From NCBI RefSeq assembly GCF_001552075.1, contig NZ_BCQM01000008.1, positions 1-64,000 of the forward strand: a stretch of DNA of 64,000 nt, in the 5' to 3' direction. A model generated the notes under the pieces. It was not told the origin of the DNA. It saw only the letters and a program-made list of their open reading frames with translations, and did not search any database. How positions within the stretch are numbered: the stretch's first letter is position 1; the number at the start of each line of letters is the position of its first letter. The stretch comes from Arthrobacter luteolus NBRC 107841. Lineage in GTDB: Bacteria; Actinomycetota; Actinomycetes; Actinomycetales; Micrococcaceae. The translations under genes and the position numbers were made by a program. Shown in pieces: positions 49,097 to 57,242 of this stretch.

Positions 49097-50389
49097 CTAG
49101 GCGGCCGGGCCCGCAACGGCCCGGCGGATCACCGGAGCGAGCCGGCGGACGCCCTCGGCGATGTCCTCGGGTGACACCGCGCTGAAGGCCAGCCGCAGCT
49201 GGGAGCTCGGGGCATCACCCGGGGTGAAGGCGGCCCCGGGGATGAAGACCACCCCGGCGTCGATGGCTTCGGTCAGCAGCGGATACGTGTCGGTGCCGTC
49301 GGGCAGGCTTACCCAGATGAAGAAGCCGCCGTCCGGTACCGTCCAGGTCACGCCGTCGGGCATGTGATCGCCGAGTGCGTTGAGCATGGCGGTGCAGCGT
49401 TCGGCGTAGAAAGTCCGTGAGGCCTCCACACGCCCCATCCAGTCGAAGTCCCGAAGGTACGCTGCGGTAATCATCTGCGTCAGGGGCGAGGGGCAGAGCA
49501 CCACGGCCTCGCAGGCCAGGTAGAAGCGGCGGAACAGATGCTTGGGCACCAGCGCCCAGCCCAGCCGGAGGCCCGGCGCGAAAATCTTGGAGAAGGAACC
49601 GAGGTACAGCACGTCCTCGGGGTTCGCGGCACGGAGCGGAACCAGCGGTTCCCCGTCGAAGCGCAGCAGCCCGTAGGGGTTGTCTTCGAGCACCAGGATG
49701 TTGTTCTCCCGGCAGATGCGGACGACGGCGTCCCGGCGCTCCGCGGAGAGGGTGATCCCGCTGGGATTGTTGAAGCTGGGGATGGTGTAGAGGAACTTGA
49801 TCCGTTTCCCGGCTTCCCGGAGGGCCTGGATCCGTTCTTCGAGCGCCGATGGGATGAGCCCGTCGGAGTCCATGGAGACCGGCTGCAGGTCCACTTCGTA
49901 GGCCTCAAAGGCATTCAGTGCGCCCACGTAGGTCGGATCCTCACAGAGCACCACGTCGCCGGGATTGCAGAACACCTTGGCGGCCACGTCCTGTGCGGAC
50001 TGGGAACCGGTGGTGATGACGATGTCTGCCGGGTCAGCGTCCATGATCCCTTCGGCAGCCATGACCTCGCAGGCCAGTTCCCGCAGCTCCTGCAGGCCCT
50101 GGCCCGGACCGTACTGAAGGGCGGCCAGGCCGTGATTGCGGATGATGTCCGCGGACACATCGGCCAGCTGGTCCAGGGGGAGCGACTGGAGGTAGGGGCT
50201 TCCTCCTGCCAGGGAAATCAGGCCCGGCTGGATCGAAATGTCGAAAACATCCCGGACAGCCGACTGCTTGATGTGGAAGGCCCGGTCTGAGAGCAGCTCA
50301 TGGTGCCGGTGGGCGGAATCGGTGGCCCGGTCCAGGGCCACCTGTGCTTCCGGGGTCAGCGAAGATCCCGTGGTTTCCTCGAAAGTCAT
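49097..50389 (-). CDS. PLP-dependent aminotransferase, class I/II (MocR/LysN-like)
   Basis: A 430-residue fold-type I aminotransferase without a DNA-binding domain. The PLP Lys is in Gly-Ser-Phe-Ser-Lys-Ile-Phe-Ala-Pro-Gly-Leu-Arg (about 272). Gln-Tyr-Gly-Pro-Gly-Gln-Gly near 92, Pro-Ser-Phe-Asn-Asn-Pro-Ser-Gly near 202 and Glu-Asp-Asn-Pro-Tyr near 235 match the 2-aminoadipate/valine-pyruvate aminotransferase branch. The amino acid substrate is open. It begins 45 bases after the LuxR-type regulator on the same strand, with an inverted repeat across its start codon, so it may be regulated with that gene. Confidence 0.92.
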   Translation of the reverse strand: MTFEETTGSSLTPEAQVALDRATDSAHRHHELLSDRAFHIKQSAVRDVFDISIQPGLISLAGGSPYLQSLPLDQLADVSADIIRNHGLAALQYGPGQGLQELRELACEVMAAEGIMDADPADIVITTGSQSAQDVAAKVFCNPGDVVLCEDPTYVGALNAFEAYEVDLQPVSMDSDGLIPSALEERIQALREAGKRIKFLYTIPSFNNPSGITLSAERRDAVVRICRENNILVLEDNPYGLLRFDGEPLVPLRAANPEDVLYLGSFSKIFAPGLRLGWALVPKHLFRRFYLACEAVVLCPSPLTQMITAAYLRDFDWMGRVEASRTFYAERCTAMLNALGDHMPDGVTWTVPDGGFFIWVSLPDGTDTYPLLTEAIDAGVVFIPGAAFTPGDAPSSQLRLAFSAVSPEDIAEGVRRLAPVIRRAVAGPAA

Positions 50390-50404
50390 GCCACATCATG
50401 GCAT
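50388..50404. promoter_or_regulatory. Inverted repeat at aminotransferase start
   Basis: ATGCCA-CATCA-TGGCAT, a perfect 6-5-6 inverted repeat overlapping the minus-strand start codon. The same hexamer occurs in the repeat at the start of the neighbouring regulator. Confidence 0.5.
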
Positions 50405-50434
50405 CGGAGTTGACTGGGAAGCAACACGTGTTTT

Positions 50435-51520
50435 CTAGATCCAGCCGGCTTTATGCGCCTTCACGCCGGCTTGGAACCGGCTTTCGGCCTTCAGTTCCTC
50501 GAGCATCCAGGCGATATGGCGCCGGCAGGTCCGCACACTGATTCCCACCCGGCGGGCGATCACTTCGTCGGAGTGCCCTGAGGCCAGTCCTGCCAGGACC
50601 GACCGCTGGGTGCTGTTGAGCCCGGCCTTGCCCGGATCTTCGTCGAGGAAGGGTTCCGCGAGGCTCCAGGCGAACTCGAAGAGCATGGCGAACAAACCGA
50701 TCAGGTTCGGGTCGCGGATGACCAGGCCCGCACGGTCATAGCTGTGCAGCTGCCGGGCCACCACCGCCACCTTGTCATCGAAAATCAGGGTGCGGAGGGG
50801 GACATAGGGCAAGGTCCGGAACTCGCCGCCGGCACCGCTGATCATTTCCACGGCCTTGCGGGTGGGCACATGGTCCCGGGTGCTGGCGTGATAGAGCGTC
50901 TGCCGCCGGACGCCGGCGCGAAGCAGGTCCAGGTCCTTCTGGACGCTTTCCTCTTGGAAGTCCGCGTTGGAGCCGTGCCCGGGCCGGGCGATCAGCACCC
51001 GGTCGGATGCCGAGCGGCCGTACTCGATGAGGACGCGCTGCACCTGCTCCGGATCTTCCAGCACTTCAACGGAGGCATCGGCCGCCGCCTGCTTTCTGGC
51101 TTCGGTAAAGGTGGGCACCAGGCTGGCCAGCTCCCGGCGTTTGGCACCAATGCGGGAGCGCAGTTCCAGCATGGCGCGTTCATCCGGGTCCACGAGTTCC
51201 GCGAGTGCGACGTCGGGGGACACCGCTGTGTAGATGGGAGCGTCCGTTCCTTCCGCAAAGAGCAGGCAGCGGGCGCGGAGCTCATCGACTGCCTGGTCGA
51301 TGGAACGCGTGGTGTACCCCAGGGCGTCCGAGGCTTCGGCCGGGGTCCAGCCAGGGTGGGCGACCGCATAGCGGTAGACCTCAACCGACACCTGATCAAG
51401 CACCTTATCCTCCTCAAGCCGCGGTGTACGGGCCGTTGCATCTGTCAGCGCCGGCGGGTTGCCATCCCAGCAAGGGCAAAGCGTTCCCGGGTCGAAATTG
51501 GAACCCGGAGAAAATGACAT
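50435..51520 (-). CDS. LuxR-type regulator with TrmB-like N-terminus
   Basis: A 361-residue transcription factor. A winged-helix-like segment lies at about 40-95 (Val-Tyr-Arg-Tyr-Ala-Val-Ala-His-Pro-Gly-Trp-Thr-Pro-Ala-Glu-Ala-Ser-Asp-Ala-Leu then Ala-Val-Asp-Glu-Leu), a central alpha/beta sensory region at 100-290 and a C-terminal LuxR helix-turn-helix at 300-361 (Leu-Ala-Gly-Leu-Ala-Ser-Gly-His-Ser-Asp-Glu-Val-Ile-Ala-Arg-Arg-Val-Gly-Ile-Ser). No receiver or autoinducer domain is seen, so it is an orphan LuxR. It is divergent from the 17-codon peptide gene and its probable modifying protein; it is the likely switch of that locus. The exact start may lie a few codons later. Confidence 0.85.
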   Translation of the reverse strand: MSFSPGSNFDPGTLCPCWDGNPPALTDATARTPRLEEDKVLDQVSVEVYRYAVAHPGWTPAEASDALGYTTRSIDQAVDELRARCLLFAEGTDAPIYTAVSPDVALAELVDPDERAMLELRSRIGAKRRELASLVPTFTEARKQAAADASVEVLEDPEQVQRVLIEYGRSASDRVLIARPGHGSNADFQEESVQKDLDLLRAGVRRQTLYHASTRDHVPTRKAVEMISGAGGEFRTLPYVPLRTLIFDDKVAVVARQLHSYDRAGLVIRDPNLIGLFAMLFEFAWSLAEPFLDEDPGKAGLNSTQRSVLAGLASGHSDEVIARRVGISVRTCRRHIAWMLEELKAESRFQAGVKAHKAGWI

Positions 51521-51536
51521 GGCATGTTAATGCCAT
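51519..51536. promoter_or_regulatory. Palindrome at regulator start codon
   Basis: ATGGCAT-GTTA-ATGCCAT, a perfect 7-4-7 palindrome touching the minus-strand start codon. It is a candidate autoregulatory operator in the 243-base divergent region shared with the peptide gene. Confidence 0.55.
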
Positions 51537-51723
51537 TCTCCACTGAATTCCCCAGTTTGGGCACCTAAGTCTGTGAAATCCGTGCTTTCCAGCGTGTCGC
51601 CGAGCTCCTGCGAACAGGTTACAAGACGGTTACGGGCATCAACCGGCCATGACAGGAAGCTGAAATTGGGAAGTGTGGACATGCCCTCTCGGGGCGGGGG
51701 AAGCTTTCGGAGTCAAACACGAC

Positions 51724-51741
51724 CGGCTGTGCAACCAGCCG
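51724..51741. promoter_or_regulatory. Dyad upstream of peptide gene
   Basis: CGGCTG-TGCAAC-CAGCCG, a perfect 6-6-6 inverted repeat ending eight bases before the ribosome-binding site of the 17-codon gene. It could be an operator or an RNA hairpin controlling translation. Confidence 0.45.
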
Positions 51742-51763
51742 AACTAAAAGAGGGGATACGACC

Positions 51764-51817
51764 ATGGAGAAAGTTACAGGATCGACGGTTTCCATCAAGA
51801 GCTGGGAATGGTTCTGA
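51764..51817 (+). CDS. 17-residue peptide gene, candidate RiPP precursor or pheromone
   Basis: Encodes MEKVTGSTVSIKSWEWF, then TGA. AGAGGGGA lies eight bases before the ATG, a strong ribosome site. The peptide has five Ser/Thr residues in positions 5-13 (possible substrates of dehydration chemistry) and an aromatic Ser-Trp-Glu-Trp-Phe end. It lies between a divergent LuxR-type regulator and a gene for a LanB-elimination-domain-like protein 97 bases downstream. CCCC/GGGG repeats in the gap can form a weak hairpin that would favour peptide over enzyme. Too short for usual gene callers. That it is a precursor or signal is inference. Confidence 0.6.
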   Translation: MEKVTGSTVSIKSWEWF

Positions 51818-51914
51818 TTTAGTCCCCTCGCCTTGGGGGAAGAACCAACCAGCAGCACACATATAGACCCGCCCCAGCGGTGGTAACCAGCTTTGAACCC
51901 GGAGGAAGATCGCC

Positions 51915-52874
51915 ATGAGCCAGCTAACAGCAGTTCGAAACGCCTCGCGAACTAATGCAAGCACTCACTGGTGGACGCTTTCTATCTACACCGGCGGCTT
52001 CGATGTAGCGGACGGCATCATTGGAGAACTGGTTACCCCGCTGGCGGCGCAGGCGCAGCTTTGGGGAGCGCAGCGTTGGTTTTACACCCGCTGCTCCGAA
52101 CCCTCAAACGCCCACGTGAGGATTAAGATCCTTGCGCCGCATGAAACCCTGGAGCGGCTGCAGTCGCTTCTCGGTGCGCTGCAGGAACAGGCAAGCGGTG
52201 TCATCGGGCACCTGAGCGTGACGCATGCTTTTGGAGATCCGGCCTGCGACCGGCTTGGTCCGGGCGGCGCTGAGCAGCAGGACCCGCGGGTGGAGGCCGA
52301 TCTCGCCAAATATGGCGGTGTAGACGGACTGGCCCTGGCCGAAGAAGTTTTTGAACTCTCCTCTGACCTGGGTACCTGGGCAACGGCCCGCTTCCCCAAG
52401 GTTCAGAACAGGTGGGCGCTGGGCTCACTGCTTCTTTTCGATTCGGCCCGCAGCATGATGAAGGGTCCGCGCGCCTCCAGCTGGCCGGACCGGCGGCGGC
52501 TTTCCTGGGATTACTACTGGGACAGCCATCTGCGCAGCTGCACCGCAGGCTTCGGTCCCCGCGCCGCGAGCGTCCGTCAGGCAATGACGGTCCAGGTCAG
52601 TGCCAAGGTCATGCCTACGCACCGCCTGATGGCAGCCACGGCCGCTGAATCCGCGGTTGAGAACTGGCGACGCCGCTGGTTCCGCACCATGGACACCTAT
52701 CTTTACCGGGCAGACAAGGCCCGCGTCAGCCGCAGCGCCCAGCACCTCACCGTTTACCAGGCGCACATGCTGCTGAACCGGCTTGGCCTGTCCCTCCGCG
52801 AAGAGGCTGCCATGGGCCTCTACGCGAGGACCTGGAGCACAGAGCGCGAAGCCCTGCTCCTGGACAAGCACTAG
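51915..52874 (+). CDS. Stand-alone thiopeptide-type/LanB elimination-domain-like protein
   Basis: A 319-residue protein with the family blocks of the thiopeptide-type bacteriocin biosynthesis domain (SpaB_C): His-Trp-Trp-Thr-Leu-Ser-Ile-Tyr (18-25), Arg-Trp-Phe-Tyr-Thr-Arg then Ala-His-Val-Arg69-Ile-Lys71, Lys-Tyr-Gly-Gly-Val-Asp-Gly-Leu-Ala-Leu-Ala-Glu-Glu-Val-Phe near 130, and Ala-His284-Met-Leu-Leu-Asn-Arg-Leu-Gly-Leu. In lantibiotic dehydratases this domain eliminates glutamate from glutamylated Ser/Thr; in thiopeptides relatives do elimination or pyridine formation. The essential His is kept, but the second Arg of the usual Arg-x-Arg is Lys. No glutamylation-domain partner is present. 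GGAGGAAG precedes the ATG. Likely acts on the 17-residue peptide. Confidence 0.75.
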   Translation: MSQLTAVRNASRTNASTHWWTLSIYTGGFDVADGIIGELVTPLAAQAQLWGAQRWFYTRCSEPSNAHVRIKILAPHETLERLQSLLGALQEQASGVIGHLSVTHAFGDPACDRLGPGGAEQQDPRVEADLAKYGGVDGLALAEEVFELSSDLGTWATARFPKVQNRWALGSLLLFDSARSMMKGPRASSWPDRRRLSWDYYWDSHLRSCTAGFGPRAASVRQAMTVQVSAKVMPTHRLMAATAAESAVENWRRRWFRTMDTYLYRADKARVSRSAQHLTVYQAHMLLNRLGLSLREEAAMGLYARTWSTEREALLLDKH

Positions 52875-52901
52875 CCGATCCGGACGGTCCGGGGGAACAT
52901 C

Positions 52902-53117
52902 TTGCAGAAGAAAGAGGTCGTTGCTGTGGCACAACGGAATGAACTGGTTCTGGCCGCGGACCAAAAAGATCTGGGAGCCGTCCTGGGATGCAGCGAAGAC
53001 ACGATCGAAGACATGCGCGACATGGGGTACGTCGAGTCGCGTGGAGAGCTCTGGAGTGTCGGGCCGGCGCGTGACTATCTGAGGGATGCGGCTTGGGCAG
53101 ACGGTCTCTGGGACTGA
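52902..53117 (+). CDS. Small helix-turn-helix-like protein of the peptide locus
   Basis: Up to 71 residues. Lys-Asp-Leu-Gly-Ala-Val-Leu-Gly-Cys-Ser-Glu-Asp-Thr-Ile-Glu-Asp-Met-Arg reads like a helix-turn-helix, followed by Gly-Tyr-Val-Glu-Ser-Arg-Gly-Glu-Leu-Trp-Ser-Val, a possible wing. No named family. The TTG at 52902 has GGGGGAA close upstream; a GTG at 52926 with AAAGAGG would give 63 residues. It starts 27 bases after the LanB-like gene and precedes a strong terminator, so it is the last gene of that transcript. It may assist recognition or regulation. Confidence 0.55.
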   Translation: MQKKEVVAVAQRNELVLAADQKDLGAVLGCSEDTIEDMRDMGYVESRGELWSVGPARDYLRDAAWADGLWD

Positions 53118-53206
53118 ACTGCACCACACAAACGTCCGCCGAATCGGGACGGTTCCACTGCGGGAGCCAATGACGAAGCGGCGGCGAGGGGTATGACACC
53201 CCACAA

Positions 53207-53258
53207 GGACGGATCTGCCTGTGTCCCCCCTGCAGGCGGATCCGTCCTTTATGTTTTT
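53207..53258 (+). terminator. Rho-independent terminator of the peptide locus
   Basis: GGACGGATCTGCCTG pairs with CAGGCGGATCCGTCC (14 of 15 pairs canonical, one T-G), followed by TTTATGTTTTT. A smaller GGGGT-ATGAC-ACCCC hairpin lies just upstream (53187-53201). Confidence 0.9.
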
Positions 53259-53355
53259 CTCTCCCCAGTTGTTCAGTAGCCTTACTAATTTTGTATAGGG
53301 TAGTTGTGGGGCGGCGCCGTGCGCCGCTGCAATGTTCGACGAGATGGAGGCTTTC

Positions 53356-55578
53356 ATGGCTGATCAGAGCACTTCCGCAAACGGACTGCCCATTCCCGGT
53401 GCACCGGCTCCCCAGGCCCCGGGCCTGGCGGAACCGGTCGAGCCGCATGAACCCCTGCCCCCCAAGCCCGATCAGGACGGGCCGGAGACGGTTTCCCCCA
53501 CGGGGGTACCGACGGGAGCTCCGAAGACCGCGAATGCGCAGTCCGGCCGTTACCTGACCACCGCACAGGGTGCCAGGCTGCAGGATACCGACCATTCCTT
53601 GAAGGCCGGCCCGCGCGGGCCGGTGCTGCTGCAGGACCATCACCTGCGGGAGAAAATCACCCACTTCGACCACGAGCGGATCCCCGAGCGGGTGGTCCAC
53701 GCCCGCGGGGCAGCCGCGCACGGTGTCTTCACCGCCAACGGGGCGGCAGAGGGAATCACCCGCGCCGGGTTCCTCGCCAAAAACGCCCAGACGCCGGTCT
53801 TCGTCCGTTTCTCCACGGTCCTCGGCTCACGGGGATCCTCCGATACGGTCCGTGATACGCGCGGGTTCGCCACGAAGTTCTATACGGACGAGGGCACCTT
53901 CGACCTGGTCGGCAACAACATCCCGGTGTTCTTCATCCAGGACGCGATCAAGTTCCCCGATGTAATTCACGCCGGCAAACCGCACCCGGACCGGGAGATC
54001 CCCCAGGCCCAGAGCGCCCATGACACCTTCTGGGACTTCGTTTCGCTGCACACCGAGGCGCAGCACCACACGATGTGGAACATGTCCGACCGGGGTATCC
54101 CGCGTTCCTACCGGACCATGGAAGGGTTCGGCGTCCACACCTTCCGCATGCTCAACGCCAAGGGTGAAACGTCCCTGGTGAAGTTCCACTGGAAGCCCCG
54201 GCTGGGTGTGCACTCGCTGGTCTGGGAAGAAGCCCAGATCATCAACGGCATGGATCCCGACTTCCACCGCCGGGACCTGGCGGATGCCATTGAATCCGGC
54301 GCCTACCCGGAGTGGGACCTTGGGGTCCAGGTCTTCCCGGACACGGAAGAGGAGATGTTCGAGGGCATCGACCTCCTGGACCCGACCAAGATTGTTCCGG
54401 AGGAGCTGGCCCCGGTGCAGATTATCGGCACCATGACCCTGAACCGGAACACCACCAACTACTTCGCCGAAACCGAGCAGGTCGCCTTCCACCCCGGTCA
54501 CCTGGTCCCCGGCATCGACGTGACGAATGACCCGCTGTTGCAGGGCCGGCTGTTCTCCTACATCGATACGCAGCTGACGCGCCTGGGGGGACCGAACTTC
54601 CACCAGATCCCGATCAACCGCCCGCACGCCCCGGTGAATGACATGCTCAGGGACGGCTTCCACCAGGATGCCGTGCACAGCGGGGTGGCGCCGTACCGGC
54701 CCAATTCTCTGGACGGCGGGTGCCCCTTCCTGGCGGGTGCGGACATGGGGGCCTTTATCGATGTCCCCGTTCCGGTGGCGGAATCGCGGAAGGTTCGGCA
54801 AAGCCCGGCCAGCTTTGAAGACCACTACAGCCAGCCGCGGCAGTTCTTCCGCTCGCTGACGCCGGTGGAGCAGGACCATTTGATTCAGGCCTACACCTTT
54901 GAGCTGGGCAAGTGCTACGAGGAGAACATCCGCATCCGCCAGCTGCAGGAGCTGGCGAACATCGACGAGCGGCTCTGTGCTGAAGTGGCTGCCGGTCTGG
55001 GTCTGCCCGCGCCGGCGCCGGCCGTGACCGTGGAAGACGCTGATCCGAGCCCGGCCCTTAGCCAGGTCGGTAAATCATGGCCCGTCGCCGGCCGCATCAT
55101 CGGCATCCTGGCGGACGACACCACCGACCTCGCCGCGTTGGAGCAGATACGCGCAGCGATTGATGCTGCGGATATGGTTCCCCTGATCATCGCGCCGCGC
55201 GGCGGAAAGCTGGGGGGCCAGGTGCCGGCCCAGCGGACCTACCTCACGGCCCGTTCCACCGAGTTCGACGCCGTGATCGTCGCCGGTGCAGGCGAACATG
55301 GCGCTGATGACGCGGACAGCCTTGATGCCAAGGCCGGAAACCCGGCGGGACATCCCGCCATTGATCCCCGCGTCGCGATCCTCCTCACCGAGGCCTACCG
55401 GCATTCCAAGGCGCTGGCGGCCTGGGGCCCGGGTGCAGCGGTGCTGGCGGCCTCGGGTATTCCGGGAGACGCCCCGGGCATCATTTCAGCCTCTCCCGCG
55501 CAGATCGTCCCGGCACTGACGGAGCTGCTGGCGCAGCACCGGGTATGGGAGCGCTTCCCGGCGGCGCCCAGCGCCTAA
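53356..55578 (+). CDS. katE: Large-subunit catalase (KatE/HPII type)
   Basis: Monofunctional heme catalase of 740 residues. The catalytic His region is Phe-Asp-His-Glu-Arg-Ile-Pro-Glu-Arg-Val-Val-His-Ala-Arg-Gly; the distal Asn is in Leu-Val-Gly-Asn-Asn-Ile-Pro-Val-Phe-Phe-Ile-Gln-Asp; the proximal heme Tyr is in Arg-Leu-Phe-Ser-Tyr-Ile-Asp-Thr-Gln. The C-terminal 150 residues form the flavodoxin/DJ-1-like domain found only in large catalases. The N-terminal 60 residues are Pro-rich. I chose ATG 53356, five bases after GGAGG, over an ATG 24 bases upstream. It could remove peroxide made by the amine and GMC oxidases, though it is not co-transcribed with them. Confidence 0.95.
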   Translation: MADQSTSANGLPIPGAPAPQAPGLAEPVEPHEPLPPKPDQDGPETVSPTGVPTGAPKTANAQSGRYLTTAQGARLQDTDHSLKAGPRGPVLLQDHHLREKITHFDHERIPERVVHARGAAAHGVFTANGAAEGITRAGFLAKNAQTPVFVRFSTVLGSRGSSDTVRDTRGFATKFYTDEGTFDLVGNNIPVFFIQDAIKFPDVIHAGKPHPDREIPQAQSAHDTFWDFVSLHTEAQHHTMWNMSDRGIPRSYRTMEGFGVHTFRMLNAKGETSLVKFHWKPRLGVHSLVWEEAQIINGMDPDFHRRDLADAIESGAYPEWDLGVQVFPDTEEEMFEGIDLLDPTKIVPEELAPVQIIGTMTLNRNTTNYFAETEQVAFHPGHLVPGIDVTNDPLLQGRLFSYIDTQLTRLGGPNFHQIPINRPHAPVNDMLRDGFHQDAVHSGVAPYRPNSLDGGCPFLAGADMGAFIDVPVPVAESRKVRQSPASFEDHYSQPRQFFRSLTPVEQDHLIQAYTFELGKCYEENIRIRQLQELANIDERLCAEVAAGLGLPAPAPAVTVEDADPSPALSQVGKSWPVAGRIIGILADDTTDLAALEQIRAAIDAADMVPLIIAPRGGKLGGQVPAQRTYLTARSTEFDAVIVAGAGEHGADDADSLDAKAGNPAGHPAIDPRVAILLTEAYRHSKALAAWGPGAAVLAASGIPGDAPGIISASPAQIVPALTELLAQHRVWERFPAAPSA

Positions 55579-56504: not shown

Positions 56505-57242
56505 ATGGATGACCTCAGGTCCGGGACGGCGACGGCGGCCCGGCTGCAGGATCTGCTGGTGCACCACGAAGACGTTCTGGAGTTCCTCCAGCATCTGGCC
56601 CGCCTGAGCGCATCCTCGCTGTCCTCCAAGGGGATGGTGTACTGCGGCATCACCCTGCAGCGCTCCCGCGAACTCAGCTTCACCGTCGCGAGCAGCGACA
56701 GTACTGCGCTGGAGATGGACGAAATGCAGTACGCCTTTGACGACGGACCCTGCCTGCACGCACTCCGCGTCCACGAACCCGTCCATGTCCCCGACACTTC
56801 CCTCGACGAGCGGTGGCCGCAGTACCTGCAGCACGTCGTGGCCCAGGGCGTGAACACGATGTACGCCGTGCCGCTCGACCTTGAGGGGCACTCACGGGCC
56901 GCCCTGAACCTCTATTCCCGCTCCGCCGGGGTGTTCGACGAGGAGTTCCAGCGCGTAGCCCGGACCTACGCGGCCGAAGCATCCCTGGCACTGCGGCTGG
57001 CCGTGCGGATGTCCCAGCGTGCCACCACGGTCGAAGACCTGCAGGCGGTGCTGCAGTCCCGGACCGACATAGACCTGGCAGTCGGCATCATCATGGGGCA
57101 GAACCGCTGCACCCAGCGCGAAGCGTTCGAGACGCTGAAACGGGCTTCAAACAGCCGCAACCTCAAGCTCAAGGTCCTGGCCGGTGAGCTGGTGGCCCGG
57201 CTGAACGGCGCTCCATCCGAAACCCACTTCCAGCCCTCATGA
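56505..57242 (+). CDS. GAF and ANTAR domain regulator
   Basis: A 245-residue cytosolic sensor and RNA-binding antiterminator. A GAF domain covers about 20-165 (Phe-Asp-Asp-Gly-Pro-Cys-Leu-His-Ala-Leu is its actinobacterial signature) and an ANTAR domain covers about 175-235 (Leu-Gln-Ser-Arg-Thr-Asp-Ile-Asp-Leu-Ala-Val-Gly-Ile-Ile-Met, then Ala-Phe-Glu-Thr-Leu-Lys-Arg-Ala-Ser). ANTAR domains bind paired hexaloop hairpins in leader RNAs. Its target is unknown. The stop overlaps the oxidoreductase start by four bases, an unusual coupling of regulator and metabolic enzyme. Confidence 0.95.
   Translation: MDDLRSGTATAARLQDLLVHHEDVLEFLQHLARLSASSLSSKGMVYCGITLQRSRELSFTVASSDSTALEMDEMQYAFDDGPCLHALRVHEPVHVPDTSLDERWPQYLQHVVAQGVNTMYAVPLDLEGHSRAALNLYSRSAGVFDEEFQRVARTYAAEASLALRLAVRMSQRATTVEDLQAVLQSRTDIDLAVGIIMGQNRCTQREAFETLKRASNSRNLKLKVLAGELVARLNGAPSETHFQPS

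Follow-up and report, generated by a model that had tools for sequence, protein, structure and literature searches.

A compact locus at positions 50,435 to 53,258 of the DNA analysed here, a 64,000-nucleotide stretch of Arthrobacter luteolus NBRC 107841 (the window), looks like an undescribed peptide-signalling system. It consists of a regulator gene on the minus strand followed, on the plus strand, by a 17-codon gene (pep1), the gene for a stand-alone SpaB_C protein, a second small gene (pep2) and a terminator. With modest confidence we read it as a peptide-signalling (pheromone) operon, found in one set of Micrococcaceae genera and containing a repurposed SpaB_C protein, and we favour this reading over Ser/Thr dehydration. 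In such an operon pep1 would encode a short W-[D/E]-W signal, which outside the window's genus would come from a precursor resembling a signal-peptide protein and holding as many as six tandem copies, and within the genus from a leaderless gene of 7-17 residues. The divergent TrmB/PLD-LuxR protein would be the likely receptor as well as the regulator, binding the mature peptide inside the cell and acting at two operator-like boxes between the genes, and the SpaB_C protein may act on pep1 or pep2, by binding or by chemistry other than Ser/Thr dehydration. What is observed is the gene content, the conservation, the domain architectures and the lack of matches to the customary partner enzymes; expression, export, uptake, sensing and the role of SpaB_C are inferred.

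Judged by its sequence conservation, pep1 is a real, conserved tiny gene. We compared 82 orthologous Micrococcaceae loci, 29 in the window's genus and 53 elsewhere in the family (the 85 matching family genomes minus three with a LanB N-terminal neighbour), selecting pep1 open reading frames (ORFs) by the motif [WY][DEG]W. Such an ORF lies upstream of the SpaB_C gene at all 82 loci (29/29 genus genomes examined, 53/53 others), which bears out the original prediction in so far as it concerns a real, conserved gene for a short Trp-x-Trp peptide. The same loose rule was satisfied in 53 of 3000 random 469-nucleotide stretches of the window, some of which overlap pep1 itself, and upstream of 1/60 SpaB_C paralogues. 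Because the ORFs were chosen by that motif, the fixed Trp of pep1 is not evidence. A Lys is present in 29/29 genus peptides (three residues before the start of the first-Trp-to-stop stretch) and after WP in 71/71 pep1 repeats, in both cases with both Lys codons in use, and all four Pro codons and both Asp codons occur. The presence of pep1, its conserved Lys with both codons and the four Pro codons therefore argue for selection acting on the peptide itself and against a Trp attenuator.

Within the window's genus there are 13 distinct pep1 peptides, leaderless and 7-17 residues long, ranging from MKSWDWF to MEKVTGSTVSIKSWEWF. The seven-codon MKSWDWF, which would be remarkably short for a conserved protein-coding gene, is the pep1 of 11/29 genus genomes. 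Under a home-made rule that asked for at least one start with a signal-like core, signal-like pep1 was found at 0/29 genus loci and at 52/53 loci outside the genus, where the signal-like precursors are about 44-93 residues long. The motif there, for instance SWDWPK, occurs once at 23 loci, twice at 23, three times at five, four times at one and six times at one; examples are ASWDWPK pairs and AVAGVWDWPQQ repeats. The tandem-repeated, signal-peptide-like precursors of these sister genera shift the weight towards signalling. The earlier suggestion of a small peptide signal, putatively sensed by the divergent regulator, stands as a sensible reading. What survives of the earlier interpretation overall is the SpaB_C assignment, the short gene and the signal idea; a glutamylation partner and an HTH-like (helix-turn-helix-like) label for the last gene do not, as set out below.

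Each part that had been noted was confirmed at its coordinates, including the strong terminator after the last gene. The features are:

50435..51403, minus strand: regulator, 322 residues, with a TrmB-like winged helix, a long helix, a PLD/TrmB-sensor-like domain and a LuxR/GerE HTH
51519..51536, no strand: probable operator 1, inverted repeat ATGGCAT-GTTA-ATGCCAT
51648..51658, no strand: probable operator 2, CATGACAGGAA
51764..51817, plus strand: pep1, 17-codon gene with a W-[DE]-W motif, MEKVTGSTVSIKSWEWF
51870..51884, plus strand: small hairpin, CGCCCCAGCGGTGGT, upstream of the SpaB_C gene; two genera have a sequence that looks alike by eye
51915..52874, plus strand: stand-alone SpaB_C / Lant_dehydr_C protein, 319 residues
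52926..53117, plus strand: pep2, 63 residues, with a conserved C-terminal tail Y-x-R-D-A-A-W-A-D-x-x-W-x
53205..53249, plus strand: intrinsic terminator with a 19-pair stem

pep2 and the surroundings of pep1

The product of pep2 had been described as a small HTH-like protein. Profile searches with it gave no HTH or other family match above cut-off, and it is instead another small peptide, whose Trp-rich C-terminal tail is conserved. This tail is present in 80/82 orthologous loci, missing in L078 and L137. We selected pep2 by D-x-x-W near the stop or by [RK]DAxW, and those letters are not independent evidence; neither the last W nor the A following W, nor most other tail positions, had been asked for. 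All 80 tails share R, D, W, A and the last W, Y and A-A being nearly as constant, and tblastn alone recovers pep2 in 39/49 loci. The front of the peptide is unconserved and quite different in some lineages. There is no conserved Ser/Thr or Cys in the pep2 tail and no invariant one in the WxW motif of pep1.

The ATG of pep1 is preceded by the ribosome site AGAGGGG. Hairpins are seen downstream of pep1 in 51680-51914 and in the orthologous regions, two genera have an element CGCCCCAGCGG ahead of the SpaB_C gene, and GGGGAAGCTTTCGGAGTC, 5' of pep1, looks nearly invariant among the genus loci inspected.

The SpaB_C protein and its usual partners

By profile and predicted fold, the 319-residue protein is a stand-alone SpaB_C domain. 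It scores 69.9 bits against PF14028 (cut-off 24.4), and the fold predicted for it is that of LanB elimination domains and pyridine synthases, the same in fold and size as TbtD, PbtD and TsrL. Its proposed placement in SpaB_C thus holds, although of the two profiles named for checking it only PF14028 was matched above its cut-off, the score against TIGR03891 (thiopep_ocin) being 45.8 bits, just below the cut-off of 48.45.

We mapped the elimination residues R784, R786, E823 and H961 (NisB numbering) by alignment with four split-LanB-type partners; R786 and E823 presumably have roles in elimination. The H961, R786 and E823 positions are all kept in 4/4 of these comparators. Among 76 peptide-linked SpaB_C proteins, only the H961 equivalent is well kept (His in 74/76, versus 13/60 paralogues); Arg occupies the R786 position in 34 of them and Glu the E823 position in 15, so that the full set of LanB elimination residues is not found there. 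The H961 position is R or Q in 36/60 paralogues. Four other residues, M239, S272, R273 and A275, are fixed in 60/60 paralogues and in 74-76 of the 76 peptide-linked proteins. The available part of one study describes loss of dehydration when H961 of NisB was mutated (PMC4341554). The kept His suggests that SpaB_C carries out chemistry, and the lost Arg and Glu together with the lack of an invariant Ser/Thr speak against glutamate elimination.

The original prediction had allowed for a glutamylation partner elsewhere in the genome, an idea that the search for one did not support. PF04738 (glutamylation) had no match in the window's genome and none across the three genus genomes searched, whereas 4/4 positive-control genomes gave matches at E<=0.001; as only two of these four were above the curated cut-off, a strongly diverged partner could be missed. 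LanC (PF05147) and YcaO (PF02624) likewise had no match in the window's genome, the same searches giving matches in 3/4 and 3/3 other genomes, respectively. Of the features of a class I lanthipeptide, an invariant core Ser/Thr or Cys was not seen in the WxW motif or the pep2 tail and LanC was not matched in the genome; of those of a thiopeptide, the YcaO azole enzyme was not matched. By Pfam, its immediate neighbours are aminotransferase and catalase genes, neither protease nor transporter.

In split LanB systems the elimination partner is a stand-alone SpaB_C protein, as is GodG of goadsporin. Our locus shares the stand-alone protein, and four relatives (L172, L174, L065 and L066, in genomes G785, G577, G033 and G050) lie beside a LanB N-terminal part matched by PF04738; it differs in having no glutamylation or LanC match in its genome and in the erosion of the catalytic Arg/Glu set. 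The likely ancestor of the SpaB_C protein here is the elimination half of a split LanB. Compared with the thiopeptide pyridine synthases TbtD, PbtD and TsrL, the difference lies in a genome with no YcaO match and in peptides with no conserved Ser or Cys. The PEARL scaffold-peptide system uses a small LanB homologous to the glutamylation domain, the domain for which the PF04738 search of the genome was empty.

These observations bear on several other explanations. The locus could direct the biosynthesis of a ribosomally synthesized and post-translationally modified peptide (RiPP), in which SpaB_C, on the model of the stand-alone TbtD/PbtD-type enzymes of thiopeptide making, would modify pep2 (a leader plus the core YLRDAAWADxxW) or pep1, and the regulator would merely control the cluster. 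The fold and size shared with TbtD, PbtD and TsrL fit this, as do the His retained far more often in peptide-linked proteins than in paralogues and a second peptide whose conserved tail follows a variable front; yet the genome has no YcaO, LanC or LanB N-terminal match, neither peptide offers a conserved Ser/Thr or Cys, the R786 and E823 equivalents are not kept, and an aminotransferase and a catalase stand where a protease or transporter might be sought. RiPP biosynthesis, which is compatible with signalling, strikes us as possible, if doubtful. Rather unlikely, in our judgement, is that SpaB_C has become a non-catalytic binder of Trp peptides, acting as carrier, receptor or chaperone, with its paralogues likewise; this too is compatible with a signalling operon. 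The elimination residues are eroded, most so in the paralogues, 36/60 of which have R or Q at the H961 position, while M239, S272, R273 and A275 stay fixed, but the near-invariant His of the peptide-linked proteins suggests retained chemistry.

Two further readings fare much worse. That the 319-residue protein eliminates glutamylated Ser/Thr with the help of a partner encoded elsewhere follows naturally from its family, and we nonetheless hold it to be very improbable given the empty PF04738 searches of the genome and two close relatives beside four responsive controls (two of them only below the curated cut-off), a motif with no invariant Ser/Thr, and the loss of the R786 and E823 equivalents. 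There is equally little to expect from the idea that pep1 serves as a leader peptide whose tryptophan codons attenuate the operon: it is indeed a very short ORF with two Trp codons ahead of an operon and has hairpins around it, but most non-genus orthologues begin in a signal-like manner, half of them have tandem repeats, the orthologues keep P and K besides W, and an Rfam search of 50000-53600 returned no match above a gathering score.

The regulator and the case for signalling

The regulator probably starts at GTG 51403, which is preceded by the Shine-Dalgarno sequence AGGAGG and gives a protein of 322 residues. Several orthologues are called at 322 residues, and residues 1-38 of the alternative 361-residue reading from ATG 51520 are disordered in the predicted model; for both reasons we take the longer reading to be probably over-long. 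The description of the protein as a divergent LuxR-type regulator is right for its HTH, which scores 29.8 bits against GerE (cut-off 23.5), but its front is a TrmB/PLD-like sensor and its start is probably the GTG, not the ATG. Among 29 orthologues scanned, GerE was matched in 29/29 and Regulator_TrmB in 12/29, and no TPR (tetratricopeptide repeat) family was among their Pfam matches. Fold matches to the model were TrmBL2, TrmB, the PLD family and LuxR-type HTHs. From the archaeal TrmB/TrmBL2 regulators it differs by the added C-terminal LuxR HTH and the paired peptide gene.

The regulator gene is divergent and adjacent at 48/48 loci of one set, at five other non-genus loci and at 24/29 genus loci. 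A box related to operator 1 was found by regular expression at 63/82 orthologous loci, and a half-site of the type CATG[AT]C[AC][GT] within 700 nucleotides upstream at 72/82, a count that can include operator 1. At the paralogues the half-site was present in 5/60, with about five expected from its 28 occurrences in the window on both strands; as this is about the background rate, we rejected the idea of one shared regulon of SpaB_C paralogues.

Related regulators also occur in other Actinobacteria; the regulator family has matches in 141/296 class genomes (E<=1e-15). Near the best regulator loci outside the family there are small signal-like ORFs with Trp motifs, some repeated 2-7 times, such as DSGW[DN] x5 (L261), DVGW[GS] x7 (L264), DTGWG x3 (L250) and EPSWE x3 (L304, L305). 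A divergent signal-like ORF was present at 26/57 regulator loci, as against 622/6000 points chosen at random within these loci; for ORFs containing [DE]x(1,2)W, a rule fixed after the same loci had been inspected, the figures are 22/57 and 97/6000 (1.6%). An earlier and looser rule, which asked for Trp close to the C-terminus, was satisfied at 16/29 regulator loci and in 1/16 window stretches but also in 6/29 control windows from RiPP-rich contigs, and alone it proved weak; once a divergent position was also required, signal-like ORFs ending in Trp were found at 11/29 and 8/28 loci versus 6.7% and 6.6% of random points. As the [DE]x(1,2)W criterion was chosen after looking and one match (L283) appears spurious, the pairing of regulator and peptide is a strong lead, not proof. 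It may tentatively be supposed that Actinobacteria harbour a widespread, unrecognised class of peptide pheromones, with TrmB/PLD-LuxR receptors and divergently encoded, secreted and often tandem-repeated acidic-x-x-Trp peptides. The Arthrobacter version would then have been cut to genes of down to seven codons and have recruited LanB-derived SpaB_C together with another Trp peptide; the outcome would be novel peptide chemistry or else a relay based on peptide binding.

Against the signalling reading stand the late choice of that rule, its one spurious-looking match among 22, the 35/57 regulator loci that show nothing under it and the response of the looser rule in control windows, together with several features of the locus itself. 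As none of the 29 genus peptides is signal-like, their secretion is unexplained. In five genus genomes (G001, G007, G011, G014 and G021) 8.7-11.7 kb lie between regulator and operon, and in one of them the regulator has an internal stop. At the Haematomicrobium locus (L078) the ORF is a YDW one with no signal, the regulator is only 33% identical and pep2 is missing. Finally, the paralogues, with no pep1 and an unenriched half-site, do not look like one regulon.

The closest functional parallel is RRNPP quorum sensing of Bacillota (Rap-Phr, ComR-ComS, Rgg-SHP), in which, as far as the consulted portion of the literature describes it, a small propeptide gene lies beside the gene for a cytosolic regulator of 250-500 residues. 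The regulator here has 322 residues and is a divergent neighbour, except in the 5/29 genus genomes mentioned. The RRNPP propeptide range of 10-100 residues covers the non-genus precursors, and the genus peptides fall partly below it; our home-made rule suggests a Sec-type signal for the peptides of 52/53 non-genus loci and for none of the 29 of the genus. A few RRNPP propeptides with no Sec signal (SHP, PrgQ) use PptAB, according to the section available of one review (PMC10075063). RRNPP receptors, in contrast, are TPR proteins, and here a TrmB/PLD-like sensor is joined to a LuxR HTH; the locus is also in Actinomycetota and has an extra SpaB_C gene and a second peptide. Because the TPR architecture is lacking, we do not file the locus under RRNPP, although it may work alike.

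Full-text searches returned no prior description of the locus recognisable by title or start of abstract, in a coverage that leaves out most subscription papers and bioRxiv, and the short peptide letter strings matched only papers unrelated by title. The part at hand of a luxR-type gene survey in Arthrobacter UMCV2 has no mention of this peptide or of a lantibiotic or thiopeptide gene (PMC9659744). Actinobacterial signals are typically small enzyme-made molecules and peptides are the rule in Bacillota, as stated in the available section of PMC10075063. If the signalling reading is true, the locus would be an Actinobacterial system of peptide and cytosolic regulator whose sensor fold is unlike TPR receptors, and a case of an antibiotic-maturation domain repurposed. 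It would make density signalling in Arthrobacter, and perhaps Streptomyces, directly testable with synthetic peptides of about six residues.

Distribution and SpaB_C paralogues

A single-protein search found SpaB_C in 37/99 genomes, including all 29 genus genomes, with 1-7 matches each when fragments are counted; full-length copies number six per genome at most, that is, up to five besides the operon copy. In profile searches, 85/395 family genomes from 8/32 genera matched at E<=1e-60, and 9/394 class genomes at E<=1e-8, two of those in the family. Five strong matches lie outside the family; at the three whose surroundings were inspected (L172, L174 and L176) a long LanB-like gene is seen by eye just upstream, with PF04738 matches nearby in two (G785, G577). 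Among the carriers of the locus are A. citreus (DSM 20133), with a KSWEWF-type peptide, A. koreensis (DSM 16760), A. gandavensis, A. agilis (UMCV2), with SWDWPK, and A. crystallopoietes. A record titled Vibrio cholerae strain 35D (L226, WNZI01000025.1) also carries this Arthrobacter locus, with 63% identity to the window protein, and is probably mislabelled or contaminated.

Expanded SpaB_C paralogues with no adjoining WxW ORF are seen at loci L034-L093 (G018, G015, G019, G004 and others), partly clustered, as at G018 C1:440-452 kb. Two kinds of candidate short ORF beside such genes were set aside: at the second SpaB_C gene of the window's genome (C5:278730-279524) the upstream WGW is the end of a neighbouring gene, leaving no convincing short ORF, and the "SFWG"/"SWG" ORFs before many paralogues are the same stretch read in other frames, which by eye resembles a ribosome site. 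The SpaB_C frame is split in two at L070 (G005) and L033 (G014). In the paralogue groups L034 and L044 a GAF-ANTAR gene, by Pfam, directly follows SpaB_C (L034:2580-3311, L044:2417-3148), and a GAF-ANTAR gene is also present within the window at 56505-57239.

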